Source: Niabella agricola (GTDB lineage: Bacteria; Bacteroidota; Bacteroidia; Chitinophagales; Chitinophagaceae). Taken from it: DNA of 64,000 nucleotides. Shown here in pieces: positions 35,911 to 61,733 of the stretch. The stretch's first letter is position 1. Each line of letters opens with the position of its first letter. The notes beneath the pieces were generated by a model that saw only the letters and a program-made list of their open reading frames with translations, did not search any database and had not been told where the DNA came from. Location of the stretch: NCBI RefSeq assembly GCF_021538615.1, contig NZ_JAJHIZ010000003.1, positions 1,116,001-1,180,000 on the forward strand. Reading direction: 5' to 3'. A program made the position numbers and the translations under genes.

Positions 35911-36717
35911 TTATTTAATATAGATTTCTTTTTTTTCAAAGGTATTGGCACTGAAATATCCCAATGCGCCGCCCCGGATATTTGAGGCCGGGTTTCCAGG
36001 AGAAGCGCTCTGATTTTGGCCTAACCCACTTTGTGTTAAACTGTACCAGAAGTCATAATTATCTTTACTGATGCAGCGCATTTCCACGCGCAGGTTATCT
36101 CCTTTTTTCAGATCGGAATCTCCATCCCCTGAAAAAATCATCAATTCATAAACCACGTTGCGCCCATCGATCAGTTTGTCATTGGTTACAAAAATGGTAT
36201 TCTCTTTCCGTCCGTCTACAAATTGTGTAAACCGGTATGCATTCCCCTCTCCTGGTGGATCCTTGAACTCCACCGTAGCAATGAGCCGCTGCCGGCCCAC
36301 AAATACCCGGCTGGTGGTGTATAGCGAATCCATTGATACTTTCTGCGGCATCCTGGAGCTGGCTGTAAAAACCTCGTTTCCGATTTTAACCGAAAGCTGA
36401 TAGGTAGCGCCCGGCTTTCCTGAAGCATTGGCCCGGTAAAGCCCGTTGCCTTTATGCTGGAGCAACACGGGCGCCTTGCCTACTTCGGCAATGGTTACAA
36501 AAGCATTCTCAACCCCTTCAAAGACATTGAGATCCGATACATTCAGTGTTTTAGAAACAATTACACTGTAAGAATCGTCGTTATCCGTCAGCGTACCTTC
36601 AATCACATATTTTTTATTGACACTGTTGATGTCTACCTGGATCACTTTTTGACAACCTGTTACCGCTAAAAGTAGAAAGCCAAACAAACCGTAAATAAAA
36701 AAAACGTTTCGATTCAT
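35911..36717 (-). CDS. DUF4249 lipoprotein, partner of the TonB receptor
   Basis: A 268-residue lipoprotein (LLAVTGCQK, lipobox Cys22) with the DUF4249 N-terminal signature VIEGTLTDNDDSYSVIVSKT and the beta-rich Ig-like region following. DUF4249 proteins are typically encoded directly after a non-SusC TonB-dependent receptor, as here (6 bp gap), and may act as its surface-exposed partner in the way SusD serves SusC. That role is inferred from context. Confidence 0.92.
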   Translation of the reverse strand: MNRNVFFIYGLFGFLLLAVTGCQKVIQVDINSVNKKYVIEGTLTDNDDSYSVIVSKTLNVSDLNVFEGVENAFVTIAEVGKAPVLLQHKGNGLYRANASGKPGATYQLSVKIGNEVFTASSRMPQKVSMDSLYTTSRVFVGRQRLIATVEFKDPPGEGNAYRFTQFVDGRKENTIFVTNDKLIDGRNVVYELMIFSGDGDSDLKKGDNLRVEMRCISKDNYDFWYSLTQSGLGQNQSASPGNPASNIRGGALGYFSANTFEKKEIYIK

Positions 36718-46600: not shown

Positions 46601-47672
46601 GCTCAAACGATGCATCTCCGGGTGAAAAATAATTGACGCCGCCAAAATAGGTACCCACCCAGATACCGCCCTGGCGGTCTTCATAAATAGAATAAATGGC
46701 GTTATCGCTGATGGTATACGGATCACCGCGATTATTTTTGTAACTCGTAAACGTGCCCGTAGCCGTATTCAATACATTCAGGCCCTTTTCTGTTGCCACA
46801 TATACCTGCCCGGATAAGGGCTGATATACCGCCCGCACAATATCGTCGCTGATCGACCCGCTACCACCTGTACGAAATACCTGGAAGTGCTGCTCCTGCG
46901 CCACCCATTTATTCAGGCCACCCGAAAGCGTGCCCGCCCATACATTGCCTTCCCGGTCCTTATAAAGCGAAAGAATAAAATTGCTGGACAGGCATCCGGC
47001 CCCGGCTGCGGCCTTATGATGCACAAACCGGTTTGTTGCTGGGTTCAGTACATCAATGCCTTCGCCGAAGGTGCCCATCCAGATATTTCCGCGGGCATCT
47101 TCTACCAGTTTCCGTACCTGGTTTAATGAAAGGCCACCGGGCATAGCACGATAATTGTGTACTTTGCCGCTACGGGGATCAAAGCGGTACACTCCATTGC
47201 TGCGGGTAGCAACCCAGGTTTCTCCATTTGAAGACCTCAGGATATCGAAGATCAGGTCTTGTTTTGCAAAAGCAATGCGTGAAAATTTTTCACGGCTCAG
47301 ATCAAAGGAATAAAGCCCTTCTTCCGTACCCACCCAGAAGGTGGTACTGCTCATCCTGCAAATGGAATGGATCAGGCTGTTGTCCGCATGATCCCGGTCT
47401 TCGCGTACCTGGTAGATCTTAAAGTTATACCCGTCAAACCGGTTCAGTCCATTCTTGGTTCCAAACCAAATATACCCCTGGTCATCCTGCAAAATATTCC
47501 AGACGGTGTTGGAAGACATTCCGTTTCGGACGCTGTAATTTTTAAACAGCAATTGCTGGGCCCGTAACAACGGAGCGCCCAACAACATGACCATGACCAG
47601 GAACCACTGCCCTCCTTTCCTTACGCGACGGCCAGGATGTCCGCTACTGCTGTTATGTAAGGATCCTTTCAA
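43578..47672 (-). CDS. Hybrid two-component system regulator (HTCS)
   Basis: A one-protein sensor-regulator of about 1364 residues. Order: signal segment, periplasmic two-component-regulator propeller repeats (NGMSSNTVWNILQDDQGYIW and WVGTxxGGLN-type blades), Y_Y_Y domain, one membrane helix (AYILYAVMLVAAVFLLR), HisKA with MAHEIRTPLSLIM (H857), HATPase (GGTGIGLSLAKALAEKH), receiver domain with VLSDVMMPELDG (D1149) and C-terminal AraC helix-turn-helix. HTCS proteins bind glycan fragments and activate polysaccharide loci. The start is uncertain: ATG 47741 overlaps the sulfatase gene by 64 bp, TTG 47672 keeps a basic signal peptide (chosen), and ATG 47594 would lose it. It lies inside the operon it probably controls. 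Confidence 0.93.
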   Translation of the reverse strand: MKGSLHNSSSGHPGRRVRKGGQWFLVMVMLLGAPLLRAQQLLFKNYSVRNGMSSNTVWNILQDDQGYIWFGTKNGLNRFDGYNFKIYQVREDRDHADNSLIHSICRMSSTTFWVGTEEGLYSFDLSREKFSRIAFAKQDLIFDILRSSNGETWVATRSNGVYRFDPRSGKVHNYRAMPGGLSLNQVRKLVEDARGNIWMGTFGEGIDVLNPATNRFVHHKAAAGAGCLSSNFILSLYKDREGNVWAGTLSGGLNKWVAQEQHFQVFRTGGSGSISDDIVRAVYQPLSGQVYVATEKGLNVLNTATGTFTSYKNNRGDPYTISDNAIYSIYEDRQGGIWVGTYFGGVNYFSPGDASFELYYPNGNSYGLSGSAVSCFLEDRPGNFWVGTENGGLNYFETATGKFYKYPFAPYTQPLSYSNIHALYKDRNNRLWVGTFSGGLNVVDLNTGAVTQYHHNPTDPGSISSNSIYSIYEDRSGVVWVGTVKGLNIFDPVKNQFVKVADMDLHNSCIYKIYEDADRCLWIATYENGLIKRDVKTGKWQQFRTTDHAASISSNKIISLYDDPEGQLWAGTDGGGLNRLDKRTGICTRYGPGQGMSNVVFGIVPDNNGFLWLSTNNGLLRFSKKNGRVWSFTGLNNLQGKLYNYNAYYRARDGRIFLGGINGFNAFYPEKIRTETLQSNLILTSFKIFDHEPDLEDKKSVLQQLVGFTQKIQLAYSQSVISFEYALLDFKDPGKIKYAYKMEGFDKQWNNVGPQRVATYTNLPPGAYTFKVKATDIYGNWNNREAVVAVRVRPPFYRTNLAYILYAVMLVAAVFLLRNYYKRREIRKNEVRLEKMKVQREKEFYQQKMDFFTTMAHEIRTPLSLIMAPLENLKEAGLQSDQRRHLKVMEENSERLQSLVNQLLDFRRIESDIYTIRKEPLELISFVQALYARFGIIAAQKKIRFLLTTDIDRFTIDADPEALQKILNNLLMNAFKFAASEVELRVHQQEPDTRGQGAVSIQVKDDGIGIPETELVTVFKPFYKVANITGQLNNAGGTGIGLSLAKALAEKHAGSLVAINGKDGFTTFVLTLPFETVVTSEESALPVAETIVGDEAGRTTILVVEDDLNMLDFISSSLKGEGYHTCCAINGKEALGILHTRQIELVLSDVMMPELDGIALCRRIREQISSSHIPVVLLTAKGTTDAELQALESGADAYIMKPFKWKQLTATIKNLLETRARLKEKFSAHPFVEADTLYNNPSDKIFIEKITAIIEERLDDYQLSVEELSKAVAMSRSTLHKKLKAVSGNSPNEFIRVIRLKEAAKLLLSGQCNVSEAGYRTGFNSPSYFTKCFTLQFGVTPSEFVEKYLSEHAYKDSIFRKDQA

Positions 47673-47677
47673 TCCAT

Positions 47678-49087
47678 TTATTTTTTTACTTTCTTTCTTA
47701 TGGCAGTGTCCGGCACTTCTGCATCCACCATCTTCAGCCATTGTTCCAGTTTCTTTTTAAGCTCCGCTGTCTTCTCCGGCATCCGGGCTGCAAGATCTGT
47801 TTGCTCCGAAGGATCGTTCTTCAGGTTGTATAATTCTGTGCGATCCGCTTTGTAGAAATACAATAATTTATAATCACCATCGCGTACCGCACTGCACATA
47901 CGGTTTATCCAACGGCCGGTTTCAGAGGGGTAATGCCAGAAGAACGGCTCACGTTCTGTCATGATTTTTCCCTGCAGCAGGGGTACTATGCTTTTACCAT
48001 CCAGCAGGATATTTTTCCGGTTTTTTGTTTGGGCCAGTTCCAGGAAGGTAGGATAAAAATCAGTGGCCATTACGCGTGTGTCTACTGTGGTATGCGGCCG
48101 GATGGTTGCCGGCCAGCGCGCGATCAGGTTTTCGCGGATACCGCCTTCATACAACCAGGACTTACCGGCCCTAAGCGGCCCATTATTGCCCAGGTGCCAT
48201 ACGCCGCCGTTGTCTGAAAAAAAGATCACGAGTGTGTTTTTATCGATCCCTCCTTTTTTCAGCGTTTCCATAATGGAACCCACACCTGCATCGATCCGTT
48301 CGATCATGGCGGCGAGATAGGGATTGTCCAGGTGATCTGCCTCATGCCGTTCATTCTGCGGGCCAAACAGGGATTCAGCTTTTCCTTCGCCATATTTTGC
48401 ATCAAACTTTGCCTTATACTTTTTCACCAGGGCCTCGGGGGCATCCAGTTTAGTGTGCACGCTATAAAAGGTAAGATAAAGAAAGAAGGGATTTGCTTTG
48501 TTACGCATAATAAATTTGGAGGCTTCACTGCACTGCCGGTCTGTAAGATACTCCCCTTCTTTGCCTGTATCAAAAGTGCTTATTTTATCGTACGGGTAAA
48601 AATAATCTCCATCTGCGATATACTTTGTTTCGGAGCCGATCACCTCATCAAAGCCATGTTGCTGCGGGTTGCCCTTCGGCGCATCGAATTTTGTATCAAG
48701 GTGCCACTTACCAATAATTCCGGTATGGTACCCCGTTGCCGACAATGCCCGGTTAATGGTATAAGACTTTGCCGGATCCAGGTAACGATCGGCATTGTTA
48801 TCCAGGAAATCCGTAATCCGCACCCGGGCCGGGTACTGCCCCGTCATGATGCCGGCACGGGAAGGTGAGCAAATGGGTGCCGCCGAGTAGGCCTGTGTAA
48901 ATCGTGCCCCTTCCCCGGCCAGCTTGTCCAGGTTCGGGGTTTCGTTAAACGTATTGCCATAGCATCCCAGTTCTGCCGATCCCAGGTCATCGGCCATAAT
49001 AAAAATAATATTCGGCCGTTGCTGCGCTTCCGCAACCGCGGTCCACAGGCTTACAACCATTAAAACGAGCCATCTTGTTTTTTTCAT
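47678..49087 (-). CDS. Secreted sulfatase, Cys-type
   Basis: A 469-residue exported sulfatase: signal peptide to about residue 21 (AEAQ), metal site MADDLGSAEL (D33, D34), active-site motif CSPSRAGIMTGQYPAR (Cys73), GKWHLDT and FFSDNGGVWHLGN. The C-terminal subdomain carries WHYPSETGRWINR and LYNLKNDPSEQTDL. It resembles the plus-strand sulfatase at 59230 in its N-terminal region (GCYGNTFNETPNLDKLA against GSYGNTFNETPALDRLA), suggesting paralogues with related substrates. It lies 51 bp after the next sulfatase gene in the operon. Confidence 0.95.
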   Translation of the reverse strand: MKKTRWLVLMVVSLWTAVAEAQQRPNIIFIMADDLGSAELGCYGNTFNETPNLDKLAGEGARFTQAYSAAPICSPSRAGIMTGQYPARVRITDFLDNNADRYLDPAKSYTINRALSATGYHTGIIGKWHLDTKFDAPKGNPQQHGFDEVIGSETKYIADGDYFYPYDKISTFDTGKEGEYLTDRQCSEASKFIMRNKANPFFLYLTFYSVHTKLDAPEALVKKYKAKFDAKYGEGKAESLFGPQNERHEADHLDNPYLAAMIERIDAGVGSIMETLKKGGIDKNTLVIFFSDNGGVWHLGNNGPLRAGKSWLYEGGIRENLIARWPATIRPHTTVDTRVMATDFYPTFLELAQTKNRKNILLDGKSIVPLLQGKIMTEREPFFWHYPSETGRWINRMCSAVRDGDYKLLYFYKADRTELYNLKNDPSEQTDLAARMPEKTAELKKKLEQWLKMVDAEVPDTAIRKKVKK

Positions 49088-49138
49088 CTGTTTATGTTCA
49101 GTGGTTTAAATTTCGAATCTGTTCACAGGCTGATGGGA

Positions 49139-50509
49139 TTATTTCCGCTCAAACGGGATGTCCAGTGTTGCCCCCGGATCTCCCTGTTGTTTCATCCAGC
49201 TTTGCAGCTTTTGGCGATATGCGGCTATCTGCGCTGCATATTTTTTATCGCCGGCCAGGTTGTGCAACTCATAGGGATCGTTTTCAAGGTCATAAAATTC
49301 CATTGCGGGCCGGTGAATATTGCGTTCCACCAGTATTTTATCTTTGGGAGAGGTCTCGGCTTTTTCCTTCCAGCTCACCCAATACGCATTTTTAGGATTC
49401 ATCATATACTTGATGTGATAATTTTTACCGGGTGTGAGATTCAGCAACAACTTATACCGGCCATCGCGAATGCTGCGGATCGGATACGGCGGACCTTCCG
49501 GCAAATTATTATGAATGCCAAAAGCTACATTCCTGGCCTGCTGCGTTTTACCCTGCAGTACTCCCAGGAAGCTGCGGCCGTCCAGGTGTGCAACAGGATT
49601 ACCGCCTGCGATATTAATAAATGTAGGCGTAATATCTTCATATTGTACAATGGCACTGGTAGCTGTTTTGGGTTGTACCACGCCGGGCCAGCGTACGATC
49701 ATGGAACTTTTTTGCCCTGCATCCCAGAGCGTCCATTTGGCACCGGGAAACTGAGCGCCCTGTTCTCCAAGAAAGACAAACACCGTATTATCTTCCTTTC
49801 CTGTTTCTTTTACCGCCTGCATTAGTTCTCCTACCTGGTTGTCCAGCCGGCGCACTTCAGCCAGGTATTTCTGGAATTGTTTTCTTGTAGGCTTGGTATC
49901 TACCCAGTGCGGCGGCAGGATCAGTTTCTCCGGATCAAACTCGGTGGTATCTCCTACCGTCCAGGGCGCATGGGGGTTGATGCTCATTACAAAAAGACAA
50001 AAAGGCGTCTGTTGCCCGCTCATAAAAGCTTTTACGTCGGCCAGCGAATAATCATCTGTGGGCGATACACAGTTGGGCTCAAAGCCTTTAATGATCTCGA
50101 ACGGGAACACTGCCCGGGGCTTTGTGCTATGGTCTTTTCCGGTTAGAGCAACCGTGTATCCCAAACCGGAAAGGTAATGCCCGATACTTTTTAAGGTATC
50201 GTATACCGGTTTGTGATTCTGATAAGATCCATGCCGTACCGGATACAAACCGGTGAACAAAGAGGCGCGCGTAGGCACACACATAGCCTCTGATGCGATC
50301 ATGTTATTGAATTGCATTCCCTGCTCCGCCAGCCGGTCGATATGGGTGGTTTTCAAATTCCGGCCGCCATAGCAGCTGAGCTGCCGTGAATCCAGATCGT
50401 CGGCCATGATCACAACGATATTTGGCTGTTTGCCACCCTGCGCCTGGCTTTTAATAACAATGCCTGTTAACAGCAGTACAAACAATAAGAGCCCCGTTCT
50501 TTTTGTCAT
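49139..50509 (-). CDS. Secreted sulfatase (N-sulfoglucosamine-sulfohydrolase-like), Cys-type
   Basis: A 456-residue exported sulfatase with signal peptide (about 1-23, SQAQ), metal site MADDLDSRQLSCYGG (D37, D38) and active-site motif CVPTRASLFTGLYPVR (Cys77). Compared with its neighbours it has TGKDHSTKP at the GKWH position and LGEQGAQFPGAKWTLW in place of SDNG, features of the sulfamidase/heparan N-sulfatase-like branch. Substrate assignment from such features is tentative. It is spaced 11 bp from the upstream phosphodiesterase gene. Confidence 0.93.
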   Translation of the reverse strand: MTKRTGLLLFVLLLTGIVIKSQAQGGKQPNIVVIMADDLDSRQLSCYGGRNLKTTHIDRLAEQGMQFNNMIASEAMCVPTRASLFTGLYPVRHGSYQNHKPVYDTLKSIGHYLSGLGYTVALTGKDHSTKPRAVFPFEIIKGFEPNCVSPTDDYSLADVKAFMSGQQTPFCLFVMSINPHAPWTVGDTTEFDPEKLILPPHWVDTKPTRKQFQKYLAEVRRLDNQVGELMQAVKETGKEDNTVFVFLGEQGAQFPGAKWTLWDAGQKSSMIVRWPGVVQPKTATSAIVQYEDITPTFINIAGGNPVAHLDGRSFLGVLQGKTQQARNVAFGIHNNLPEGPPYPIRSIRDGRYKLLLNLTPGKNYHIKYMMNPKNAYWVSWKEKAETSPKDKILVERNIHRPAMEFYDLENDPYELHNLAGDKKYAAQIAAYRQKLQSWMKQQGDPGATLDIPFERK

Positions 50510-50520
50510 ATAATCATCTT

Positions 50521-51846
50521 TTATCGGTTTGAAAAAATATCGGGCAAGGCATTGGAGCTACCGCCAATGGATGGTATGCCCAGCAATCGGCAGATCAGCG
50601 GTGCAATATCCAGCATGCGCAGCCGCGCCAGCGCACTGCCTTTTTTAACACCATAACCTGCAGCAATAAACCCGGTAGAGATCTGATCGAAATCGGGATA
50701 ATAACCGTGTGCACCGCCCAATGTTTTATTGCGGATCAGGGGTCCCTTGACGGCATTGCTGGCTACAACTCCTTTTTTCATGGCCAAGGCCAGCGCCACT
50801 TCGGGGTTTGCGCTTATATTCTTAAGCTCTTTCTTTGTTACGATGCGGAACCATTGATCACTTTCGGGTAACCGACGTAACAATTGTTCCACCTGCCGGG
50901 CCGTGACAGCATCACCGGCTTTCTTTGTATATAGAAAGGCGGAGCCACCTGCAGTATAAAACTTTGCCTTCCAATTCTCGCCGCTGATCAGCCCATTCTT
51001 TTCCAGCAGCACATTTGGCGCAAAGCTTTGTGTAGCATCTACAAACCCGTGATCTCCCGTCACAATGATGGTTGTATTTGATGCCTGCCCGGCCTCTTTT
51101 ATCGTGGTTATCACCTGCCCGATCATACTATCAATCAGAGCCACTGCTTCTTTTACTTCCGGGGCATCGCGGCCATGCTCATGCTGGGCATGGTCGGCCT
51201 GTATGAAATGAATGGCCAGCAATGCCGGTTCGTACTGCTTAAATATAAAGGCGGCCATCCGGCCAATGGTACGGTCCACATTCCTGTATTTAAAATCATC
51301 CGCAGTAACTGTTCCGCTACCGGAGGCCGCCATCTGATCCAGCATCTGGACCGGTGTGATGTAAGGCCGGGTTACAGAAAGCTGGTCCGTTTTTTCATCA
51401 CCGTCGGCACGGCGCACCGGAAAATTATAGTCAATGGGAGCTCCAACCGTCACGGGCCACATCACGGCCCCGGATGTAAGACCTGCGTTCTTAACTGCCT
51501 TCCAGAGTGTGGGTGCCCTTATCGCACTGTCTTCCCAATACCAGCGACCCTTTGGCGCTTCAAAAGGGACATTATAATAAATACCATGTTTGCCTGGTGG
51601 CTGACCGGTAACAATCGATGTATGCGAGGGGTATGTTATGGTTGGGAATACGCCAACCACCTGGCGGGCATAAACCCCCTGTTGTTTTAGCTGCTTCAGA
51701 TGGGGAGCAGGCCATGCAGGATCCAGGTAAAATTCCGGCCGGAGCCCATCAATACTGATCAGTACTACATGTTTTGAAGATTGCGCCTTTACCTGCGTTA
51801 TTAGGCTAAAGGCCAATACAACAAAAAATATTCTTTTAATCAACAT
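50521..51846 (-). CDS. Exported NPP-type phosphodiesterase (alkaline-phosphatase superfamily)
   Basis: A 441-residue exported enzyme of the nucleotide pyrophosphatase/phosphodiesterase family. Signal peptide to about residue 22 (VKAQ). Metal and nucleophile motifs: ISIDGLRPEF (D33) and FPTITYPSHTSIVTG (nucleophile T71), then IQADHAQHEHG (D, H) and TGDHGFVD (D, H). It is thus not a sulfatase although it sits among them with gaps of 1 and 11 bp. NPP enzymes cleave phosphodiesters, so a phosphorylated substituent on the target glycan is possible. Some superfamily members are promiscuous. Confidence 0.93.
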   Translation of the reverse strand: MLIKRIFFVVLAFSLITQVKAQSSKHVVLISIDGLRPEFYLDPAWPAPHLKQLKQQGVYARQVVGVFPTITYPSHTSIVTGQPPGKHGIYYNVPFEAPKGRWYWEDSAIRAPTLWKAVKNAGLTSGAVMWPVTVGAPIDYNFPVRRADGDEKTDQLSVTRPYITPVQMLDQMAASGSGTVTADDFKYRNVDRTIGRMAAFIFKQYEPALLAIHFIQADHAQHEHGRDAPEVKEAVALIDSMIGQVITTIKEAGQASNTTIIVTGDHGFVDATQSFAPNVLLEKNGLISGENWKAKFYTAGGSAFLYTKKAGDAVTARQVEQLLRRLPESDQWFRIVTKKELKNISANPEVALALAMKKGVVASNAVKGPLIRNKTLGGAHGYYPDFDQISTGFIAAGYGVKKGSALARLRMLDIAPLICRLLGIPSIGGSSNALPDIFSNR

Positions 51847-51847
51847 A

Positions 51848-53902
51848 TTATTTCTTTATAGGCACTAATTCCACATCATCGATCCACAACCTGGTGCCGG
51901 CGGCTGCCGTTCCAAAATAAAGACCCACCCGGTACATACCATTTTCAGGAATGGCTTCGGATGCAAATTCAAACTGTTCCTTATGCGGTTTTAATTCTAC
52001 TTCCCGGTCAATCACTTTCCCTGCCCCCGGGGCGGTGCTTTCCAGGCGGACGAAGAAGTGGGTGTTTTGTAGCGCGGTTGCCTTCAGTCTTACTAAAAAA
52101 CGTTCGCCCTGTTGCGCTCTAAAGGGCCACAGCATTGAGAGACTCGCAGGCCTGGCGGCAGGCTGCGCTACCGTAATGTATGCCGACCTTTCCCCGGAGA
52201 TACGGCTATTGTCATCAATTGCTATCGAGCCTTTCATTTCTTCCGCACGGTGTACATTCCAACCACCCAGGTTGTCATCAAAACCTCCATTAATATTCCT
52301 GCGGTAGGCCTGCATCCGCACGTTATACTCCCTTGTATCCAGGGGGAAGGCGCCTATCTTACGGGCCCATGCTTCCCAATCGGCATACATGGCTGTTACC
52401 CTCCGGGGATCCGTTCGGCCCAGGTTGTTCATCTCCGTAGGATCTGCTTCCATATCATACAATTGTAACGAGTCCATTGAAAAAGCGGCACCCTCCGGCG
52501 TTTTGGCCACCAACTTCCATTTGCCATTGCGCAGGGCGATATTGGCTTCATGCTCCCAGTAGATCCGGCCACGGTTATTGGACTGACCCGAAAAATGCGG
52601 AAGGAGACTTTTTCCCTCCATCGGATGAATCTTGTGCCCCCGAAAAACGGATGGGTACCGTGCACCTGACACGGCCACACAGGTAGCCATAATATCGGTG
52701 ATATGCCCGTAACCGGAAACGAACTGATCATTCAGGCGGGCGTTGATGCCTTCCGGCCAGTGCACAATCAGCGGTGTGGCAATTCCTCCTTCATGCGTGA
52801 AATGTTTATACTGCTGAAACGGCGTGCTACTCACATTGGCCCAGGGCAGGCGGTAACTTTCAAATGTTTCAGCGGTTCCATCCACCGCCTTGCTTTCACC
52901 ACTGCTGATAAACTCTGCACAGGCGCCGTTATCACTAAGAAAAAAGATCAACGTATTGTCCAGTGCATTGTTTTCTTTCAGCGTTTGCATGATCTTCCCA
53001 ATGCCCTCATCCATGATATCGATCTGCGCGGCGTAGATTGCCATGCGCATGCTCATTTCCTCCTGCTCCTTATCTGTCAGCCGGTCCCATGCGGAAACTG
53101 TGGCGTCTCTCGGCGTACATACAGCCGAAGCGGGGAACAAACCGATCTCTTTTTGTTTTTTAAAACGTTCGGCTCTTATGGCATCCCAGCCTTTTTTATA
53201 CGTTTCCCTGTATTTATCGATCCGTTCTTTAAGCGCGTGCAGCGGCCAGTGTGGTGCGGTATACGCCACGTACATAAAAAACGGGGCTTTTTTTTCGCCA
53301 CGGAAATGATCATTCAAAAAACGCACACTGGTATCGGAGATCGCATTAGTCAGATAAAAATGATCCGGTGCCTTATATTTCCGGTTATCGCTGTAAAGCA
53401 TTGGAGTAAAGTAATTGGCACCACCGGGTATGATACCGAAATAACGGTCGAATCCCCGTTGCCGGGGCCAGCTATCGGTTACTGCACCGTCTATCTTCCG
53501 CTCATTGGTCACATGCCATTTGCCAGTCATGTAGGTACTGTAGCCTGCTGTTTTCAGCACTTCAGCAATAGTGACACATTCGTTGTTCAGGTTATCCTGG
53601 TAAGCCGGACCGGTTCCCAGATCTGCTGCCGCCATCCAGCCCATCCCCGCCTGGTGTGGATAAAGACCTGTCAGCAGCGACGCCCGCGTTGGGCAACATC
53701 TTGCCGCATTATAAAATTGCCGGTAACGGATGCCTTCTTTTGCCAGCTGATCAAGATGCGGTGTTTTAATTTCCCCGCCGTAGGCTCCTATATCGGAATA
53801 GCCCATATCATCTGCCATTATGAGCAGGATATTAGGCTTTACCTGCGCGCCGGCAAACACGGAAACGCCCAATAAAAGTATAAAGACTGAAAAGCGGAAC
53901 AT
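51848..53902 (-). CDS. Secreted sulfatase with C-terminal carbohydrate-binding-like module, Cys-type
   Basis: A 684-residue exported sulfatase, larger than its neighbours. Signal peptide to about residue 20 (FAGAQ), metal site MADDMGYSDIGAYGG (D31, D32), active-site motif CCPTRASLLTGLYPHQ (Cys69 followed by a second Cys), GKWHVTN and FLSDNGACAEF. Residues about 545-684 form a beta-sandwich (NGGFDDNLGGWNVHR, SAYITVAQPAARPAS, RLWIDDVELVP) like CBM4/9 galactose-binding folds, which would hold the enzyme on its polysaccharide. It is the first enzyme after susD in the operon. Confidence 0.94.
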   Translation of the reverse strand: MFRFSVFILLLGVSVFAGAQVKPNILLIMADDMGYSDIGAYGGEIKTPHLDQLAKEGIRYRQFYNAARCCPTRASLLTGLYPHQAGMGWMAAADLGTGPAYQDNLNNECVTIAEVLKTAGYSTYMTGKWHVTNERKIDGAVTDSWPRQRGFDRYFGIIPGGANYFTPMLYSDNRKYKAPDHFYLTNAISDTSVRFLNDHFRGEKKAPFFMYVAYTAPHWPLHALKERIDKYRETYKKGWDAIRAERFKKQKEIGLFPASAVCTPRDATVSAWDRLTDKEQEEMSMRMAIYAAQIDIMDEGIGKIMQTLKENNALDNTLIFFLSDNGACAEFISSGESKAVDGTAETFESYRLPWANVSSTPFQQYKHFTHEGGIATPLIVHWPEGINARLNDQFVSGYGHITDIMATCVAVSGARYPSVFRGHKIHPMEGKSLLPHFSGQSNNRGRIYWEHEANIALRNGKWKLVAKTPEGAAFSMDSLQLYDMEADPTEMNNLGRTDPRRVTAMYADWEAWARKIGAFPLDTREYNVRMQAYRRNINGGFDDNLGGWNVHRAEEMKGSIAIDDNSRISGERSAYITVAQPAARPASLSMLWPFRAQQGERFLVRLKATALQNTHFFVRLESTAPGAGKVIDREVELKPHKEQFEFASEAIPENGMYRVGLYFGTAAAGTRLWIDDVELVPIKK

Positions 53903-53951: not shown

Positions 53952-55640
53952 TTACCACCCAGGATTCTGATTGGCAGTTCCGATATTCGGATTTTGCGTG
54001 ATCTCATCGGCCGGCAGCGGGTACAGCAGGCTTTTGGGCATCTCAATACTCATCTGCGGCGCATTGACGGCAAATTCATTGGTATACTTTTTTGTGGTCG
54101 TATTGTACGTCGGCATCTTTTGCGGGTATTTTGACAGCACTTCTTTAAACTGGTATTCAAACATGGTTTGTGACGGGCTCAGCGGACTGCGCATGCGAAC
54201 GAGATCGAACCAGCGCTGTCCTTCCCCTGCCAGTTCAAGACCACGGTCGTCAAATACCTTCACCCGGAATGCATCTTTGGATATCCCCGGCTCAATATTG
54301 GCCGGCACAGCCCGTTGAATACCATTTGCGTTCCGGGCCCGCGCCCTTACCTTATTGAAGGCTTCAAGCGCTGTTGCAGTGGGTCCGTTCAATTCATTTT
54401 CTGCTTCAGCTTTTATCAGGTAGATCTCTGCAAAACGAATAACAAAAAAATCATTCCCGTTATTACGCCCATCTTTGCCATTGGGATCAATATACTTGCT
54501 GATCAGCGGCGTGGTGATGGTCCCTTCATCTGCCGCAGGCAGGTTGGGATACACAGCATAATATTTTTTTTGGGTAACATTATACCCTTTCTGAAAAAAA
54601 GCGCCTTCGTTACGGTAATCGATGACCTTTATCCCGTTGATCAATGAATCGTAATCACCGGTACGATAATAATCCGCTACCCAGGGCATTACCCGCATAG
54701 AACCATCTCCCGCTCCATTGGGCGGATTGCCACAAACCTGATGCGTATTGGGTGCACCAAAGCGCAATGCAAACTCTGAGCCTGCTGCCGGTTGAGCCCG
54801 GTCCTGCTGATCTACCATAAACCGCACACCGAAGATCACTTCGTTGTAGGCATCATTCTCTCGGTTGATGTCAAACAGGTCTTTGTAATTCGCCAGCAAC
54901 TGGTACTGGTTGCTTTGGATCACTGAATCGGCATAGGTTATAGTTTTCTGATAATAGGTATTTCCATCCTGTCCTTTTAACGCCAGCTGATTGCCATAGG
55001 TTAATGCGGCCTGGGCGTAAATGGCCTGCGCCGCTCCTTTGGATGCACGGCCCAGTTCTGCCACCGGGATGTTTTTTGCCAGGGGCAACAATGCAGCCGC
55101 TCTTTCCAGGTCAGAAAAGATCTGCGTATACACTTCCTGTACTGAGCTGCGCGGCAGGTAGAAATCAGCATCAACATCCGTAGCCTTCAACCGTAGCGGT
55201 ACGCCACCATATAACCGTACCAGGTAATAGTAGCAGAACGCCCTGATAAAATATGCGTCTCCGTAAGCACGTTGTTCCGCCGCGGGATCGAGGTTTTTTG
55301 CATCCAGCTGTGCGATCAGGTCATTGGCACTGCCGATGGTAAAATACAACACGCTCCAAAAACCTGATACATTTACCGAAGTAAGGGTACGATCCGAAAA
55401 AGGCAGCAACTCACCAGACGCAGCGGCATACAAATCATCTGCGGAAAGAAATAACATGGCCATGCCCCGGAATTTAAAGGCATTGGAATTATTCAGGCGC
55501 GCATACAATCCCTTTACTACCACTTCCAGGTCCCGTTCACTGTTGATGGTAGCCGGAGTGGGCACATCGAGCAGGTCTTCCTTTAAGCTGCAGCCTTCTA
55601 ATACAGCGACTGTCAGCAGTAATGCAATAATATATTTCAT
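53952..55640 (-). CDS. SusD/RagB-family glycan-binding lipoprotein
   Basis: A 562-residue surface lipoprotein, started at 55640 where the lipoprotein signal begins (MKYIIALLLTVAVLEGCSLK, lipobox Cys17); the frame is open to 55673. TPR-like helices with the signature DAYFIRAFCYYYLVRLYGGVPL (split over about 125-150) identify the family, and the C-terminal region shows RFAEIYLIKAEAENEL and FDDRGLELAGEGQRWFDLVRM. SusD proteins cap the SusC barrel and hold glycans. It pairs with the susC gene ending 29 bp upstream. Confidence 0.96.
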   Translation of the reverse strand: MKYIIALLLTVAVLEGCSLKEDLLDVPTPATINSERDLEVVVKGLYARLNNSNAFKFRGMAMLFLSADDLYAAASGELLPFSDRTLTSVNVSGFWSVLYFTIGSANDLIAQLDAKNLDPAAEQRAYGDAYFIRAFCYYYLVRLYGGVPLRLKATDVDADFYLPRSSVQEVYTQIFSDLERAAALLPLAKNIPVAELGRASKGAAQAIYAQAALTYGNQLALKGQDGNTYYQKTITYADSVIQSNQYQLLANYKDLFDINRENDAYNEVIFGVRFMVDQQDRAQPAAGSEFALRFGAPNTHQVCGNPPNGAGDGSMRVMPWVADYYRTGDYDSLINGIKVIDYRNEGAFFQKGYNVTQKKYYAVYPNLPAADEGTITTPLISKYIDPNGKDGRNNGNDFFVIRFAEIYLIKAEAENELNGPTATALEAFNKVRARARNANGIQRAVPANIEPGISKDAFRVKVFDDRGLELAGEGQRWFDLVRMRSPLSPSQTMFEYQFKEVLSKYPQKMPTYNTTTKKYTNEFAVNAPQMSIEMPKSLLYPLPADEITQNPNIGTANQNPGW

Positions 55641-55669
55641 GAATTCTTTTTTATACAATGAATGAATGA

Positions 55670-58600
55670 TCACAACCCTAGTTCTAATCCGGCCGAGAAC
55701 GTACGGGGCAGCGGTAACGTACCATAATCCATACCACTGCCAAGCGCATCGCTATCAAACGCATTGATGTTTGGGTCATACCAGGAATAATTGGTAAAGG
55801 TGTAAAGATTTGTAGCAGACACAAATACCCGCAATCCCTGAATGGGCGCCTTCTTTTTCAAATTAAAAGCATATCCCAGGCGCACGGTCTGAATCCTCAG
55901 GAAGGAGGCATCTTCCACCATCCAATCGGGAAACCGCTGCGAAAAGCGAATCGTATTATTGGTGGGGCGGGTATATTGATTGCTGGTGCCGGGGCCGGTC
56001 CAGCGGCGGTCCCAGGCTTCCTGCGTGGCATTGAAATTACCGCTGGTATTGTTGGCACCTACCATCCATTGATTCAGGTTGATAAGCTGGTTGCCCCTGC
56101 TTCCAATAACGTTAATCCCGAATGAAAAATTTTTATAGGTAAACTCATGGCTCATCCCATATGTAAAATCGGGCGCAGGATTTCCGATAATCGTTTTATC
56201 ATCTTCCGTGATCTGCCCGTCGCCATTCACATCTACAAACCGGGTCATACCTGGTTTTGTCTTTCCCTTTTCAGGACCGGCATCCACTTCTTCCTGCGTT
56301 TGGTAAACGCCGTTGGTTTTATACCCCCAGAAAGAAGAAATGGGATAACCGACTTTTGCCACTTGCAGGGGCTGACTAAGAATGATTGCTCCGGCCACCA
56401 CATAAACGCGGCCATAGGTAATACCCAATGATCCCATATCCAATACTTTATTGGAATACTTGGAGAAGTTGGCGGAAATATTCCAGGTAAGTGGCCCTTT
56501 GTTGATTACATTATATGTGGCCTCCATATCAATGCCCTTATTGAGTACTTCTCCTATATTGGTAAACATATCGCTGTAACCGGAGGAGCTGGGTAGGGCC
56601 AGGTTAATGAGCAGGTCGGTTGTATTCTTTTTATAATAATCGATCGAAAAACTCAGACGGTCTTTTAAAAAAGAAAGATCCATACCGATATTCAGCTGCT
56701 TTGTATTCTCCCAGCCCAGGTTTGGGTTTTGAAAATCGCTGAGTACATAGCCGGGTGCAATACCGCTGCCCAGCACCACATAATCGATTCCATATTTTGC
56801 CTGGGTGGCTCCGATGGCCACATTCTCATTTCCGCTGACACCATAGCTGGCGCGGAATTTCAACGTAGAGATTACTTTTTTCCAGGGTTCGAAAAACGCT
56901 TCATTTGACGTATTCCATCCTAGTCCTGCAGCTGGAAAGAAGTTCCATTTATTTCCCGGGGCCAGTCGGGACGACCCGTCCGCCCTGCCCGTTAGTGTCA
57001 CCACATACCGCTGATCATAGGTATAATTGATCCGGCTAAGGAACGACTGCAGTACTTTGGTGCGGGGTCCATTTGTGAGGAATCTCCCGGGCGACAATGC
57101 ACTATTGAAATTATAGTAGGTCATCTGATCCGAAGGAAAATTCATATTCGTTACGCTGGTCGATTTGTTAATCCAGCGCTGATAGGAGTAGCCCGCCACA
57201 ATGTTCAGCGAATGTTTTTGGTCCAGTACTTTCCGGTATGTAAGCAGGTGATCTGCCAGATAGTTTGTATTGGAGTTATCTGCCCGGGTAGCATAGCCGT
57301 TGGGAGCCGTGTTGCCCACAAAAGTACCGCGCGGATAATATACATTCCGGAGCGAGTACATATCGTTCAACCCCGCGCGCAGCGTGTATTTCAAACCCTT
57401 CACAATCTCATAGTCGAGGTTCAGGTTGCTGGTCAGGGTGCGGATCTGCGTTTTATCCTTCACCAATGTAGTTACCAGCACCGGATTATTGGCAAAGGTT
57501 TCGTCAAGATCCCCATCCGCCTCAAAAGGCTCCTGAAGCGGGTTGGTGACCAATGCGCCCATTACCGCTGAAGAGCCCATGATACCGGTCCAGTTGGATT
57601 GCTGACCATAATACCGGTCTGCCATCGAAAAATAATTTTTAATACTGATCTTCAGTTTGTCGTTGACCTGCCGCGAAAAATTGGCGCGGAAGCCGTAGCG
57701 CTTGTACTGTGCATTTTTGATGATGCCCCGCTGGTCCGAATAATTGCCGCTCACCAGATAGTCGTTGCGCCCGTCGCGGCCGGATAAAGCAACCTGGTGG
57801 TCCTGCGACAACGCCGTTTCATAGATTGCATCCTGCCAGTCCATGCTGATGCCGGTTGCCAGTATGGAGTCTATTGCATGTTGGGTATACACCGAGTCCT
57901 TTCCGTCATTCAGGTTGGCTTCGTTTTTATAGGTCATAAAATCGCGGGCACCTAACATTTTTATTTTCCGGGGCAAACGGCTCAGGTCAAATCTTGTGGT
58001 ATAGGTAAGTTTATCACGGCCATTCTTACCCGCTTTGCCCGACTTGGTGGTAATCAATACTACACCATTTGCACCCCTCGATCCGTAAATGGCCGTTGAT
58101 GAAGCATCTTTCAGGATGTCCACGGAAGCAATATCATTCGGATTCAGCGAAGCCAAGGGGTTGGCTGCAGAAATATCCAGCCCTCCATCTACTCCCATAC
58201 CCGCCTTGGTAGCACCATAACTGGATTCAACGGGCTGTCCGTCGATAACGATCAGCGGCTGGTTATCACCGGTCACCGAAGTTTTCCCCCGGATGTTGAA
58301 GGTTACGCCCCCGCCTGGCTCCCCTGTATTGTTGATGATCTGTACTCCGGCCATTCGACCCTGCAACGCTTCGGTTACCGATATGAAGCGATTATCCATT
58401 TCCTTGTCCAGGTTCAGTTTGCTTATCGCACCGGTCACATCGCTTTTTTTAAGCTGTCCGTACCCCACAACCACCACCTCATCCATATCAGACACGGTCG
58501 AATCCAGGGTAATAAATAATTGTGTTTTATTGCGCACAGCCACTTCTACCCGCTTGTATTGTGCATGTGACACCAGTAATACCGCATTTCCGGGAACATT

Positions 58601-58831
58601 GAGGGAAAAGGTTCCGTCGGATTTAGATGTAGTTCCGGCACTGCGGCCTTTTACAATCACCGAAGCATCCGGTACGGGATCACCCCATAAATTTTTTATG
58701 GTTCCCGTTACCCGGATCCGGTTGTCCTGCGCCCCCGCAGTGATGCCTGCCAGCAATATGGCAAACAGGATCAATAGCTGTTTCCGAAAGCCCGGCGTCC
58801 GGCTGTAATTTATTAATACTACAGTTCTCAT
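55670..58831 (-). CDS. SusC/RagA-family TonB-linked outer-membrane protein
   Basis: A 1053-residue outer-membrane transporter, full length for the family. Signal peptide to about residue 34 (ITAGAQ), CarboxypepD_reg-like domain (about 39-115), TonB box region MDEVVVVGYGQLKKSDVTG, plug with RGKTSVTGDNQPLIVIDGQP and SVDILKDASSTAIYGSRGAN, barrel to the C-terminal LPRTFSAGLELGL. No STN domain, so control by an HTCS rather than sigma/FecR is expected, matching the gene downstream. First gene of the locus. The divergent promoter region lies upstream. Confidence 0.97.
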   Translation of the reverse strand: MRTVVLINYSRTPGFRKQLLILFAILLAGITAGAQDNRIRVTGTIKNLWGDPVPDASVIVKGRSAGTTSKSDGTFSLNVPGNAVLLVSHAQYKRVEVAVRNKTQLFITLDSTVSDMDEVVVVGYGQLKKSDVTGAISKLNLDKEMDNRFISVTEALQGRMAGVQIINNTGEPGGGVTFNIRGKTSVTGDNQPLIVIDGQPVESSYGATKAGMGVDGGLDISAANPLASLNPNDIASVDILKDASSTAIYGSRGANGVVLITTKSGKAGKNGRDKLTYTTRFDLSRLPRKIKMLGARDFMTYKNEANLNDGKDSVYTQHAIDSILATGISMDWQDAIYETALSQDHQVALSGRDGRNDYLVSGNYSDQRGIIKNAQYKRYGFRANFSRQVNDKLKISIKNYFSMADRYYGQQSNWTGIMGSSAVMGALVTNPLQEPFEADGDLDETFANNPVLVTTLVKDKTQIRTLTSNLNLDYEIVKGLKYTLRAGLNDMYSLRNVYYPRGTFVGNTAPNGYATRADNSNTNYLADHLLTYRKVLDQKHSLNIVAGYSYQRWINKSTSVTNMNFPSDQMTYYNFNSALSPGRFLTNGPRTKVLQSFLSRINYTYDQRYVVTLTGRADGSSRLAPGNKWNFFPAAGLGWNTSNEAFFEPWKKVISTLKFRASYGVSGNENVAIGATQAKYGIDYVVLGSGIAPGYVLSDFQNPNLGWENTKQLNIGMDLSFLKDRLSFSIDYYKKNTTDLLINLALPSSSGYSDMFTNIGEVLNKGIDMEATYNVINKGPLTWNISANFSKYSNKVLDMGSLGITYGRVYVVAGAIILSQPLQVAKVGYPISSFWGYKTNGVYQTQEEVDAGPEKGKTKPGMTRFVDVNGDGQITEDDKTIIGNPAPDFTYGMSHEFTYKNFSFGINVIGSRGNQLINLNQWMVGANNTSGNFNATQEAWDRRWTGPGTSNQYTRPTNNTIRFSQRFPDWMVEDASFLRIQTVRLGYAFNLKKKAPIQGLRVFVSATNLYTFTNYSWYDPNINAFDSDALGSGMDYGTLPLPRTFSAGLELGL

Positions 58832-58901
58832 AATGACATTTTAGCAATTCAATAAAAAGATAGGGTGCTGAATAGCAGCAATACTTCCTGCAATCGTGGC
58901 C

Positions 58902-58909
58902 GCAATATA
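58902..58909 (-). promoter_or_regulatory. Candidate -7 element of susC
   Basis: On the minus strand the octamer TATATTGC, within GTTGCTATATTGCGG, matches the matching element in front of the divergent sulfatase gene. It fits TAnnTTTG at six of eight positions. Its upstream edge is 21 bp from the nearer operator half-site, and the susC ATG follows about 70 bp later. Confidence 0.5.
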
Positions 58910-58929
58910 GCAACAGCCGATACCTGGCA

Positions 58930-58963
58930 CTGTCATTATTGTAGGGATTGCTGTAACAATTGT
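58930..58963 (-). promoter_or_regulatory. Composite operator upstream of susC (minus orientation)
   Basis: Read on the minus strand: half-site ACAATTGTTACAG (58963-58951), spacer CAATCCCT, half-site ACAATAATGACAG (58942-58930). The two 13-mers start 21 bp apart, two helical turns, as is usual for AraC-type activators binding as dimers in tandem. The first half-site and spacer are almost identical to the plus-strand copy at 59124-59157. Confidence 0.7.
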
Positions 58964-59123
58964 CTTGCAGTTACCGGATCGCCGGTGGGCGCCGGAACAA
59001 CCTTTTAAAACAGGGGTCATCATGTCGTTTCTAAATTGTTTGATAAAAATTATAAAAGTCCACAAATTTAGTAGACTTTTACTTTTATTACCAAGGAAAA
59101 TCAGCCTCAGCACTGTTTTTCCG

Positions 59124-59157
59124 ACATTTGTTACAGCAATCCCTACATTTGTTACAG
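59124..59157 (+). promoter_or_regulatory. Composite operator upstream of the plus-strand sulfatase gene
   Basis: Two identical half-sites ACATTTGTTACAG at 59124-59136 and 59145-59157, 21 bp apart, with spacer CAATCCCT between them. Together with the minus-oriented copy at 58930-58963 this forms an inverted pair; 24 of 25 bases are shared between 58940-58964 and 59123-59147. The likely ligand is the DNA-binding domain of the HTCS encoded in the locus (inference). Confidence 0.7.
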
Positions 59158-59199
59158 CCAGATGGTCGACTTATATGGCGCAGATCGGGGAGAGTTGTT

Positions 59200-59207
59200 T
59201 ATATTGC
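59200..59207 (+). promoter_or_regulatory. Candidate -7 element of the plus-strand sulfatase gene
   Basis: TATATTGC within GTTGTTTATATTGCG, the same sequence as in front of susC. It lies 43 bp after the nearer operator half-site, 22 bp further than on the susC side, and 22 bp before the ATG at 59230. Confidence 0.5.
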
Positions 59208-59229
59208 GTGAAGCAATCGTACAGGTTAA

Positions 59230-60636
59230 ATGCATTTTTCCAGGCTGAAACGTCATATGATCTTTTTCTCTTTATTGTTGTCCTTATATACGGAGGCACA
59301 GCAACGGCCCAATATTATTTTTATCCTCGCCGATGACCTGGGCTATAGCGAACTGGGCAGTTATGGAAATACCTTTAACGAAACGCCTGCATTGGACCGG
59401 CTTGCAACCGAAGGCATGCGGTTCTCCTGCTTCTACGCTGCTGCTCCCGTTTGCTCTCCCTACCGCGTGGCATTAATGACCGGCCAATACCCGGCGCGTG
59501 TCGGCATTACCGACTACCTGCGTCCCCGGGCTGCCAGGCACCTGGATACCGGTTATGTAACGCTTCCTGAACTGTTAAAAATGCAGGGTTATCATACGGG
59601 TATTGTTGGAAAATGGCATTTGTCCGGGTATGTAAAAGAAGGTGCGCCGGAGGAAACGCTCCCAGACCGGCATGGATTTGATGAAGTACTTGTAAGCGAG
59701 AACCGGGGGATTGGTGAAGGCACATATTTTTATCCTTATGATTTCAACCGCGAAATTGTAAAACGGCTGCCGGGAACTCATGAATATATTACCGACCGAC
59801 AAAACCTGGAAGCCCTGGAATTTATAAAGCGGAACCGGAACCAGCCTTTCTTTTTGTTCCTGAGCCATTATGCAGTTCATACAACGGTACACGGCAAACC
59901 GGAACTGGTTCGCCATTTTCAGCGAAAAAAAAATGCGGGTGCCAGTCCGCCAAGCCAACAAAACCCGGAAAACGCCCCTTATAAAAAATGGCCTTCCGGC
60001 TCAAAAGCCACCCGCAATAATCCGCACCTGGCAGCACAGCTCAAAGGGATCGATGATGGCGTGGGTGCCATTGTGCATCTTTTAAAAGAGCTGCAAATCG
60101 ATCGCAATACTCTTATTATTTTTACCAGCGACAACGGCGGTGAAACAACCATTACCACCAATGCACCACTGCGGGGCGGCAAAAGTACGTTATATGAAGG
60201 CGGCATCCGTGAGCCGTTTATAGCCTGGTGGCCCGGAAAAATACAGGCGAACGCCATTTGCAAACAACCACTTGCCAGTTATGATATTTATCCTACGCTG
60301 GCAGCGTTAACCGGTGCCAAAGGCAGGCACCAGCCATTGGACGGCATTTCATTCAGCTCATTGCTACAAAACCCGGAAGGATCTTTGCCTCAACGGGATT
60401 TTTACTGGCATTATCCGCTGGAAAAGCCACATTTCTTAGGCGGCCGGTCTGCGGGGAGCATCCGCAGCGGCGCCTGGAAGCTGATTACTTTTTTTGACGA
60501 CGGACATAAGGAATTATATAACCTGGATGAGGATCCCGGTGAAAAAACCGATCTGGCCGCAGTGTATCCCAGCCGTGTGGCTGCGCTGGATGCCACATTG
60601 CAGCAATGGCAGCAATCTGTAAACGCAACCCATTAA
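59230..60636 (+). CDS. Secreted sulfatase, Cys-type with CSPYR active-site motif
   Basis: A 468-residue exported sulfatase started at 59230 (signal peptide MHFSRLKRHMIFFSLLLSLY, then TEAQ; M10 is an alternative start). Metal site LADDLGYSELGSYGN (D35, D36), active-site motif CSPYRVALMTGQYPAR (Cys75), GKWHLSG and FTSDNGGETT. The tyrosine at the fourth motif position is unusual, Ser/Thr being common, but the Cys, Pro and Arg needed for formylglycine formation are kept. It is divergent from susC and followed by a GH43-like gene 11 bp downstream. Confidence 0.94.
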   Translation: MHFSRLKRHMIFFSLLLSLYTEAQQRPNIIFILADDLGYSELGSYGNTFNETPALDRLATEGMRFSCFYAAAPVCSPYRVALMTGQYPARVGITDYLRPRAARHLDTGYVTLPELLKMQGYHTGIVGKWHLSGYVKEGAPEETLPDRHGFDEVLVSENRGIGEGTYFYPYDFNREIVKRLPGTHEYITDRQNLEALEFIKRNRNQPFFLFLSHYAVHTTVHGKPELVRHFQRKKNAGASPPSQQNPENAPYKKWPSGSKATRNNPHLAAQLKGIDDGVGAIVHLLKELQIDRNTLIIFTSDNGGETTITTNAPLRGGKSTLYEGGIREPFIAWWPGKIQANAICKQPLASYDIYPTLAALTGAKGRHQPLDGISFSSLLQNPEGSLPQRDFYWHYPLEKPHFLGGRSAGSIRSGAWKLITFFDDGHKELYNLDEDPGEKTDLAAVYPSRVAALDATLQQWQQSVNATH

Positions 60637-60647
60637 ATTATTTGATA

Positions 60648-61733
60648 ATGAAACGAACGATTTCGCTATTTTTTCTTTTACTGTCCCTTCAGATCGGGAT
60701 CGCCCAAAATACCACCGCGGTTTCCAATAATCCGCTGCCCGTTCAATTTGGCGACCCATATGTGTTGCACGTAAAAGGAGACCAATATTATATGTACGGC
60801 ACAGGCGGCGGCGCAAAAAAAGGGTTCAGCGCTTATTCCTCAAAAGACCTGGTAAACTGGAAACCGGAGGGACAGATTTATTCCGGAGATAATAAAAACG
60901 GGTGGGGCATCCATTCGTTCTGGGCGCCAGAGGTATATGAACATAATGGTAAATTTTACCTGTTCTACAGTGCACAATGGAAAGAAAACCCAAACAACGA
61001 ACTGGAAAATTTCAAGATCGGTGTTGCGGTTGCGGACAAACCCACAGGACCTTTTGTTGACCTATATGCACGGCCGGTTTTTGATCCGGGCTATCCCCTC
61101 ATCGACGCCAATGTTTTATTTGAACCCGACGGAAAAGTATATCTTTACTATTCCCGCTGCTGTTATAAACACGCCGTTGATAGTGAAATCGCCGACTGGG
61201 CCAGGAAAAAGGGCTGGTTTAAAGAGATCGAAGAAAGCTGGGTATACGGGGTGGAGTTGAAACCGGATTTCAGCGGTGTTATTGGTGAACCCGTCTTGCT
61301 GCTGCGTCCGCCTGTAAAGATGAGCGACCGGCAATCGGAATGGGAAAGCCGCTCCGTTACCTCAAAAGAAGTGAACCGGCGCTGGACCGAAGGCTCCTTT
61401 ATCTTTAAGCATAAGAATCTTTACTATATGATGTATTCTGCCAATTATTTTGGCGGTAAAAACTATGCCGTGGGCTATGCTACCTCCAAAACACCATTAG
61501 GTCCCTTTAAAAAGGCAGCCAACAACCCGGTATTGCAAAAGAATATTGAAAAAGGCGGCATCGTTACCGGAACCGGGCATAACAGCATTACCTTTTCACC
61601 CGATGGCAAACAAATGTATTGCGTTTATCACGCCCGCACCAGCCAGACCGGTGATGAGCGGGTGGTATTTATCGATCCTATGAACATTGATAAAAACGGC
61701 TTGCTGAAAGTAGCGGGCCCCACAACGAAGTAG
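60648..61733 (+). CDS. Secreted glycoside hydrolase, family 43-like
   Basis: A 361-residue exported five-bladed beta-propeller glycosidase, started at 60648 where the signal peptide begins (MKRTISLFFLLLSLQIGIAQ). The three acidic residues of clan GH-F are placed as expected: base D36 in FGDPYV, pKa modulator D153 in LIDANVLFEPDG and acid E248 in RWTEGSFIF. Further conserved parts are SFWAPEVYEHNGKFYLFYS and GTGHNSITFSPDGK. GH43 enzymes are mostly arabinofuranosidases, xylosidases or galactosidases; the subfamily cannot be read by eye. Together with the preceding sulfatase it forms a two-gene unit of the sulfated-glycan locus. Confidence 0.88.
   Translation: MKRTISLFFLLLSLQIGIAQNTTAVSNNPLPVQFGDPYVLHVKGDQYYMYGTGGGAKKGFSAYSSKDLVNWKPEGQIYSGDNKNGWGIHSFWAPEVYEHNGKFYLFYSAQWKENPNNELENFKIGVAVADKPTGPFVDLYARPVFDPGYPLIDANVLFEPDGKVYLYYSRCCYKHAVDSEIADWARKKGWFKEIEESWVYGVELKPDFSGVIGEPVLLLRPPVKMSDRQSEWESRSVTSKEVNRRWTEGSFIFKHKNLYYMMYSANYFGGKNYAVGYATSKTPLGPFKKAANNPVLQKNIEKGGIVTGTGHNSITFSPDGKQMYCVYHARTSQTGDERVVFIDPMNIDKNGLLKVAGPTTK

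Follow-up and report, generated by a model that had tools for sequence, protein, structure and literature searches.

In Bacteroidota, the regulation of glycan loci is usually attributed to glycan and carbon status. In Proteobacteria, sulfatases are controlled by sulfur supply; sulfatase genes under sulfur control would be the feature shared with the locus described here, and the differences are that the regulators there are other ones and that those sulfatases do not belong to a SusC/D locus equipped with a glycan sensor of its own. CymR is an Rrf2-family repressor of cysteine metabolism in Firmicutes, and members of that family also respond to Fe-S, iron or NO.

The closest described operators are those of HTCSs in B. 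thetaiotaomicron: Ravcheev et al. 2013 (PMC3878776) predicted motifs for 16 of the 36 HTCSs of this species. In the main text of that paper, each motif is a direct repeat in which the spacer is not conserved and the sites lie 21 bp apart on average; the authors interpret them as bound by dimers, with two helix turns between the sites. Nowhere in the same main text do the terms Rrf2, cysteine or sulfur appear. The Niabella promoter shares with these operators (PMC3878776, main text) the direct repeat plus spacer, the average distance of 21 bp, the position before susC-like genes and the putative same-face dimer. It differs in belonging to Chitinophagaceae, in a divergent promoter that carries the element twice, in inverted orientation, and in a putative sulfur-regulon palindrome between the copies. 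The palindrome appears to be the new part, and the HTCS part appears to be of a known kind. Among the open-access PubMed Central papers listed, there was no report that glycan loci of this phylum are controlled by sulfur or by Rrf2, which is no proof of absence, and no description of an Rrf2-type sulfur repressor in the phylum.

Gene order and the probable HTCS composites

The window (the whole stretch of DNA that was analysed, 64 kb) is part of a 6.26-Mb Niabella genome in 3 contigs, which was used for the genome-wide scans. On the minus strand, susC (TonB-dependent receptor, 55670..58831) and susD (53952..55673) are followed leftwards, with tight spacing, by the remainder of the gene run (42188..53902): a sulfatase (51848-53902), a phosphodiesterase-like gene (50521-51846), two sulfatases (49139-50509 and 47678-49087), the HTCS gene (43578..47741) and a further sulfatase (42188-43648). 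Judging from the gene spacing, the susC-side genes are probably co-transcribed. On the plus strand are a divergent sulfatase (59230..60636), with the motif CSPYR, and 3' of it a GH43-family gene (60606..61733). C-x-P-x-R is found in all four sulfatases of the susC-side run and in 6/6 sulfatases examined, and is missing from the phosphodiesterase-like gene; the genome as a whole has 27 sulfatase-domain matches. With a SusC/SusD pair, sulfatases and a glycoside-hydrolase-family protein, the locus has the composition of a PUL for a sulfated glycan. Its closest named relatives are in Niabella sp. BIN29 (L004) and N. pedocola (L005), where SusC is 93% identical.

The HTCS carries Reg_prop, Y_Y_Y, HisKA, HATPase_c, receiver and AraC-type HTH domains (Pfam), which bears out the earlier statement, made from the sequence alone, that an HTCS is encoded in the susC-led gene run. 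A periplasmic sensor propeller, histidine kinase, receiver and AraC-type HTH are thus combined in one protein. The HTH is 94-96% identical in three orthologues, while identity in the sensor and kinase parts is 80-86%, one 34-residue piece (91%) excepted.

Two inverted composites flank the susC/sulfatase promoter, each with two 13-bp half-sites starting 21 bp apart, as the sequence-only reading had described. Composite L, on the minus strand, consists of a downstream half-site ACAATAATGACAG (58930..58942) and an upstream half-site ACAATTGTTACAG (58951..58963), with 13/13 and 12/13 columns invariant in the four intact orthologues. Composite R, on the plus strand, has ACATTTGTTACAG as both its upstream (59124..59136, 11/13 columns invariant) and its downstream half-site (59145..59157, 12/13). 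The consensus given in that reading, ACAwTTGTTACAG, is exact in three of the four half-sites, but the fourth (ACAATAATGACAG) has 3 mismatches. A 20-base core including the spacer, CAATCCCT, is identical between the inverted copies (0 expected, 100 shuffles).

With at most 4 mismatches allowed in the two half-sites together, the 64 kb contain two composites with a spacing of 21, both at the promoter. There are none at the remaining spacings from 14 to 40 with the same tolerance, and 100 dinucleotide shuffles of the window gave 0 composites at spacing 21. Lone half-sites are not rare, being commoner than expected in the window (60 vs 33.7, up to 3 mismatches). The composite had been proposed as a search query for a wider regulon, which did not hold up: a scan of the genome with a 22-position form (up to 3 mismatches) gave three matches, two of them at this promoter. 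Composite matches (up to 3 mismatches) occur in 73/294 genomes of the family, but some resemble tandem coding repeats, and we draw nothing from this count. A third tandem of this kind, composite-like and with 21-bp spacing, has two copies of GATTTCAACATTTGTTA and is seen upstream of another susC, at about 6340-6390 of L114 (G000:C2:600357). Within the 51 kb around it there is no HTH match to the locus HTCS, only weak kinase/receiver matches.

To assess conservation, promoters of the window, G297, G298, G303 and G302 were aligned; all but G302 keep SusC and HTCS and are here called intact. In this order, the right composite has 0, 1, 0, 1 and 2 mismatches, and the left composite 3, 4, 4, 4 and 5. 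In the four intact promoters, 48/52 half-site columns are invariant, compared with 101/225 in a background of five stretches (P=5e-11, with columns that are non-independent). The half-sites are conserved in these loci, where the HTCS is kept. The spacers are invariant at only 10/16 columns. The sequence-only reading had taken the identical spacer to be part of the element; however, the two spacers differ in the orthologues and are identical in the window alone, and the aligned orthologues thus rule out spacer identity as a sign of function.

G302, which has the worst left composite of the five, has no detectable SusC, SusD or HTCS in the locus stretch, and the best HTCS match in its genome is 33% identical. 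Its copy of the locus (L091/L129) is decayed: SusC/D, the HTCS and the phosphodiesterase-like gene were not found in the stretch, the divergent sulfatase is reduced by eye to a short remnant, and the promoter elements are still recognisable. G277, a more remote orthologue, keeps the HTCS (77% identical; HTH 86%), yet its best composite has 6 mismatches at 21-bp spacing, which weakens the case for strict composite conservation. G277 also keeps the divergent sulfatase and GH43, and the SusC/D position is filled by other genes (by eye). In relatives further away (L006-L012, with SusC 45-56% identical in the best segment), the 700 bp before susC contain no composite at up to 8 mismatches, except for a lone 7-mismatch match with 20-bp spacing in L010; these loci are uninformative on the motif.

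The earlier statement that tandem sites two turns apart are an HTCS architecture agrees with the predicted, not footprinted, operators in the main text of PMC3878776, which the composites match: they are direct repeats with about 21 bp between half-sites, 5' of susC. It is likely that the locus HTCS reads them and that they are operators of this known kind.

The palindrome between the composites

The promoter also contains a conserved block that the sequence-only reading had missed, AAAAGTCYACAAATTTARTAGACTTTT in the four intact promoters (window 59054-59080). Within it lies the putative palindromic operator AGTCCACAAATTTAGTAGACT (59057..59077, unstranded), common to sulfur-assimilation genes, in which 19/21 columns are invariant in the four intact orthologues. 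Its distance to the right composite is 46 bp, and to the left one 93 bp. The palindrome is set in a longer imperfect inverted repeat (window 59040-59094) with 27-nt arms that are 74% complementary and, in some orthologues, TTGGT/ACCAA-like ends. A terminator or cruciform was set aside as an explanation because the same sequence stands 5' of sulfur genes elsewhere.

With 0 to 2 mismatches, the 19-mer core is found at six places in the genome, including that of the window and one intragenic place. Weaker 19-mer sites (up to 3 mismatches) were discarded, with 14 in the genome vs 26 in the reversed control. The 21-mer (up to 3 mismatches) occurs 6 times vs 2 in the reversed control in this genome, and 78 vs 14 times summed over 17 Niabella genomes. 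Among the matches listed, neighbourhoods were examined at 37 places, which hold 41 sites (L113 is without a site at the threshold). These cover all listed sites of G303, G022, G296, G295 and G299, the window's own genome outside the window, and part of those of G302 (3/4), G300 (4/6) and G006 (2/8). Neighbours were read by eye, with Pfam domains for representatives. Nine of the 41 sites are directly 5' of metY, cysM-cysE, cystathionine lyase or sirohaem/TauE genes, seven are 5' of a TonB receptor of the type found after the cys operon, five are 5' of a PhyH dioxygenase and four 5' of a fatty-acid hydroxylase. A further 12 precede TonB-receptor genes (SusC or others), sulfatase genes or both, and four have unclear neighbours. 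A weaker palindrome (score 18.1) is found 5' of a peroxiredoxin-cysH-cysD-cysN-cobA-cysJ-cysI operon, the gene names of which were taken from Pfam domains. Sites 5' of metY, cysM-cysE, cystathionine lyase, sirohaem/TauE and prx-cysH are what is expected of a sulfur/cysteine operator.

Scores refer to a matrix built from 21 sites outside SusC promoters. The training sites score 22.6-31.2, and the window palindrome, at 30.0, falls inside that range, with the next window position at 10.0; the high score is partly circular, because the sites were found with the symmetrised window palindrome. The locations of the sites are not circular, and neither are the matrix-found sites at cysH in other genera. 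In simulated sequence, scores of at least 16 arise 0.3 times per Mb. The second-best match in the window (36213-36233) is intragenic and is probably due to chance.

A second operator in the genome leads a susC-susD-sulfatase set (L111, L218), and the same is seen by eye in G303 (L118, L220). In G299, a palindrome is 5' of a sulfatase, and the 180 bp scanned there contain no composite. A sulfatase homologue is present within the stretch at 6/37 places, as a raw count. In G277 (L246:8059-8106), two palindromes 27 bp apart are seen in the orthologous promoter, where SusC/D is replaced by other genes.

Candidate promoter boxes were called with the promoter consensus (-7 TAnnTTTG). In 10 of 29 sites outside the locus promoters, a perfect TAnnTTTG begins 33-34 bases past the first base of the palindrome, so that the -33 box falls inside the palindrome. 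In the same set, TAnnTTTG abuts the upstream edge in four sites and lies inside only in three, and 12 have it at none of these places. For the prx-cysH site, the scan gave no such box. In the window, a candidate -7 box, TAAATTTG (59063..59070, minus strand), would place a susC-directed core promoter inside the operator, with a candidate -33 box, TTGG (59091..59094, minus strand; read from the aligned sequences), 20 bp from it. The TTGG position is kept in G297, G298 and G303 and is absent from G302, which is without susC at the locus. TTGG is better evidence than TAAATTTG, because the palindrome partly dictates the latter, and as evidence for a susC core promoter it is modest. In the rightward direction, no TAnnTTTG was seen inside the palindrome. 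A palindrome that overlaps candidate core promoters suits a repressor role.

Candidate -7 regions of HTCS-linked promoters lie further out. TATATTGCG is seen on the susC side at 58901..58909 (minus strand), where 58900-58915 is invariant at 10/16 columns, and on the sulfatase side at 59200..59208 (plus strand), where 59194-59208 is invariant at 15/15 columns in all five promoters; it is 42 bp past the right composite and 20 bp past the left one. As the TATATTGCG pattern at 3 mismatches is no rarer than chance (13 found vs 8.9 expected), it is conservation that argues for this box. Given its distances from the composites, the palindrome is not an obvious block to these outer promoters.

An Rrf2-family protein as candidate reader of the palindrome

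Four Rrf2-family genes are present in the genome, one of which (L106:2112-2519) is 2.3 kb before the cysH operon. Its product belongs to the Rrf2 family (PF02082, E 1.2e-33) and is similar to B. subtilis CymR 2y75 (E 8e-13), but is not filed as CymR because its score is under the equivalog cut-off of NCBIfam (64.8 vs 195 bits). CymR of Firmicutes is a cysteine-metabolism repressor (PMC2869319, abstract). The Niabella protein resembles it in family, in sequence and in its putative cysteine and sulfur gene targets. It differs in being under the cut-off, in the phylum, in the palindrome found here, and in putative targets that include SusC/D and sulfatase genes.

An rrf2 gene is found within 1.5 kb in 15 of 30 cysH loci of the family, and 14 of these 15 have a site (score at least 8) between rrf2 and cysH. 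Sites with scores of 10 to 18 are also seen directly 5' of rrf2 in 6/16 Niabella rrf2 loci, which would suit autoregulation. In G296 and G300 (L086-L090, L102-L105), several reading frames, those of rrf2 and cysH included, are interrupted, probably by assembly errors.

Co-occurrence of palindrome and rrf2 was examined in 100 genera with one genome each, taking E below 1e-50 as an Rrf2 orthologue (61 genera with, 39 without). The mean number of palindromes is 2.97 with an Rrf2 orthologue and 0.31 without (P=1.5e-10), and the reversed control gives 0.36 and 0.44, respectively. At least two palindromes are present in 38/61 genera with the orthologue vs 2/39 without. Restricting the comparison to cysH-bearing genera gives 3.24 palindromes with Rrf2 (n=50) vs 0.44 without (n=9; P=3e-4). 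Among the cysH loci, the site is missing in 5/6 from genomes without an Rrf2 match, and 23/28 from genomes with one score at least 11 (P=0.001). G189 is the only one of 17 Niabella genomes without an Rrf2 match; its cysH is present (78%) and has no palindrome (best score 4.4), and the palindrome count of the genome is at background level (1 vs 3 in the control). G037 is the exception, with a site at cysH and no rrf2 detected; since its genus mate G128 carries rrf2, the gene was possibly missed. This evidence is an association, from which we infer that the Rrf2 protein may bind the palindrome.

Two proposed inputs and their alternatives

Taken together, we consider it probable that this is a two-input promoter, with HTCS activation by glycan and Rrf2-type repression relieved by sulfur shortage. 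The HTCS, its sensor engaged by glycan, would bind the composites, one per direction, and activate susC and the divergent sulfatase. The palindrome would belong to the sulfur/cysteine regulon of the cell as an operator for the Rrf2-family protein whose gene is close to the cysH operon; this protein, when bound, would cover the candidate susC-directed core promoter in the manner of a repressor. When sulfur is scarce, the repressor would leave, so that SusC/D, sulfatases and HTCS are made at an initial level, and HTCS would then amplify expression if glycan is present, so that the two signals would be combined at one promoter.

The promoter might instead be under HTCS control only, with a palindrome that has no sulfur role here. 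The HTCS-type architecture and the conservation of the composites are in keeping with this, as is the position of the palindrome away from the composites and off the HTCS-linked promoter boxes. We regard this as rather improbable, since the palindrome is invariant at 19/21 columns vs 101/225 in the background, matches the sulfur-gene operator, precedes other sulfatase or SusC genes, and is kept in G277 and G302 despite the replacement or loss of SusC/D there. That another AraC-type protein or an HTCS paralogue reads the composites seems very unlikely: two of the three composite matches in the genome are this promoter, and the composite is best kept where the locus HTCS is kept, although HTCS-like proteins are numerous in the genus (12 matches at E 1e-100 in G303) and a similar 21-bp tandem precedes another susC with no HTH match to the locus HTCS within 51 kb.

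The remaining alternative accepts the palindrome as a sulfur-regulon operator, but supposes that something different from this Rrf2 protein reads it, or that it serves activation in place of repression. Association is not binding, Rrf2 proteins have other signals, the genome has four Rrf2 genes, of which this one misses the CymR cut-off, and G037 does not conform. Against this stand the co-occurrence over 100 genera, the adjacency of rrf2 to cysH with sites before rrf2 itself, the joint absence of rrf2 and of the cysH site in G189, and the overlap with candidate core promoters, and we consider the alternative unlikely.

Beyond this promoter, we lean towards a reading in which sulfated-glycan loci of Niabella, and perhaps of Chitinophagaceae more widely, belong to a sulfur regulon under an Rrf2-type repressor of cys/met and SusC/D-sulfatase genes. 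The glycan sensor (HTCS) and sulfur status would then decide jointly, with the glycan as a source of both sulfur and carbon. If so, the locus would be a joint carbon and sulfur acquisition system, and sulfated glycans would be predicted to serve as sulfur sources. The palindrome would also mark, at the sequence level, the members of the family's sulfur regulon, among them outer-membrane receptors and oxygenases with no assigned substrate.

Several further genes are associated with the palindrome or with the cys genes. In L110:4537-6131, L117, L098 and L125, it is 5' of a fatty-acid hydroxylase gene, with a small ORF first in three of the four; the two are possible new members of the sulfur regulon. 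In L108:57-2059, L116, L121, L094 and L096, it precedes a PhyH dioxygenase gene followed by a short-chain dehydrogenase gene, which are candidates for organosulfur scavenging. The cys cluster at L106:13834-17433 encodes two fusion proteins, in each of which a sirohaem-synthase-like NAD-binding domain is joined to a sulfite-exporter domain of the TauE/SafE type.
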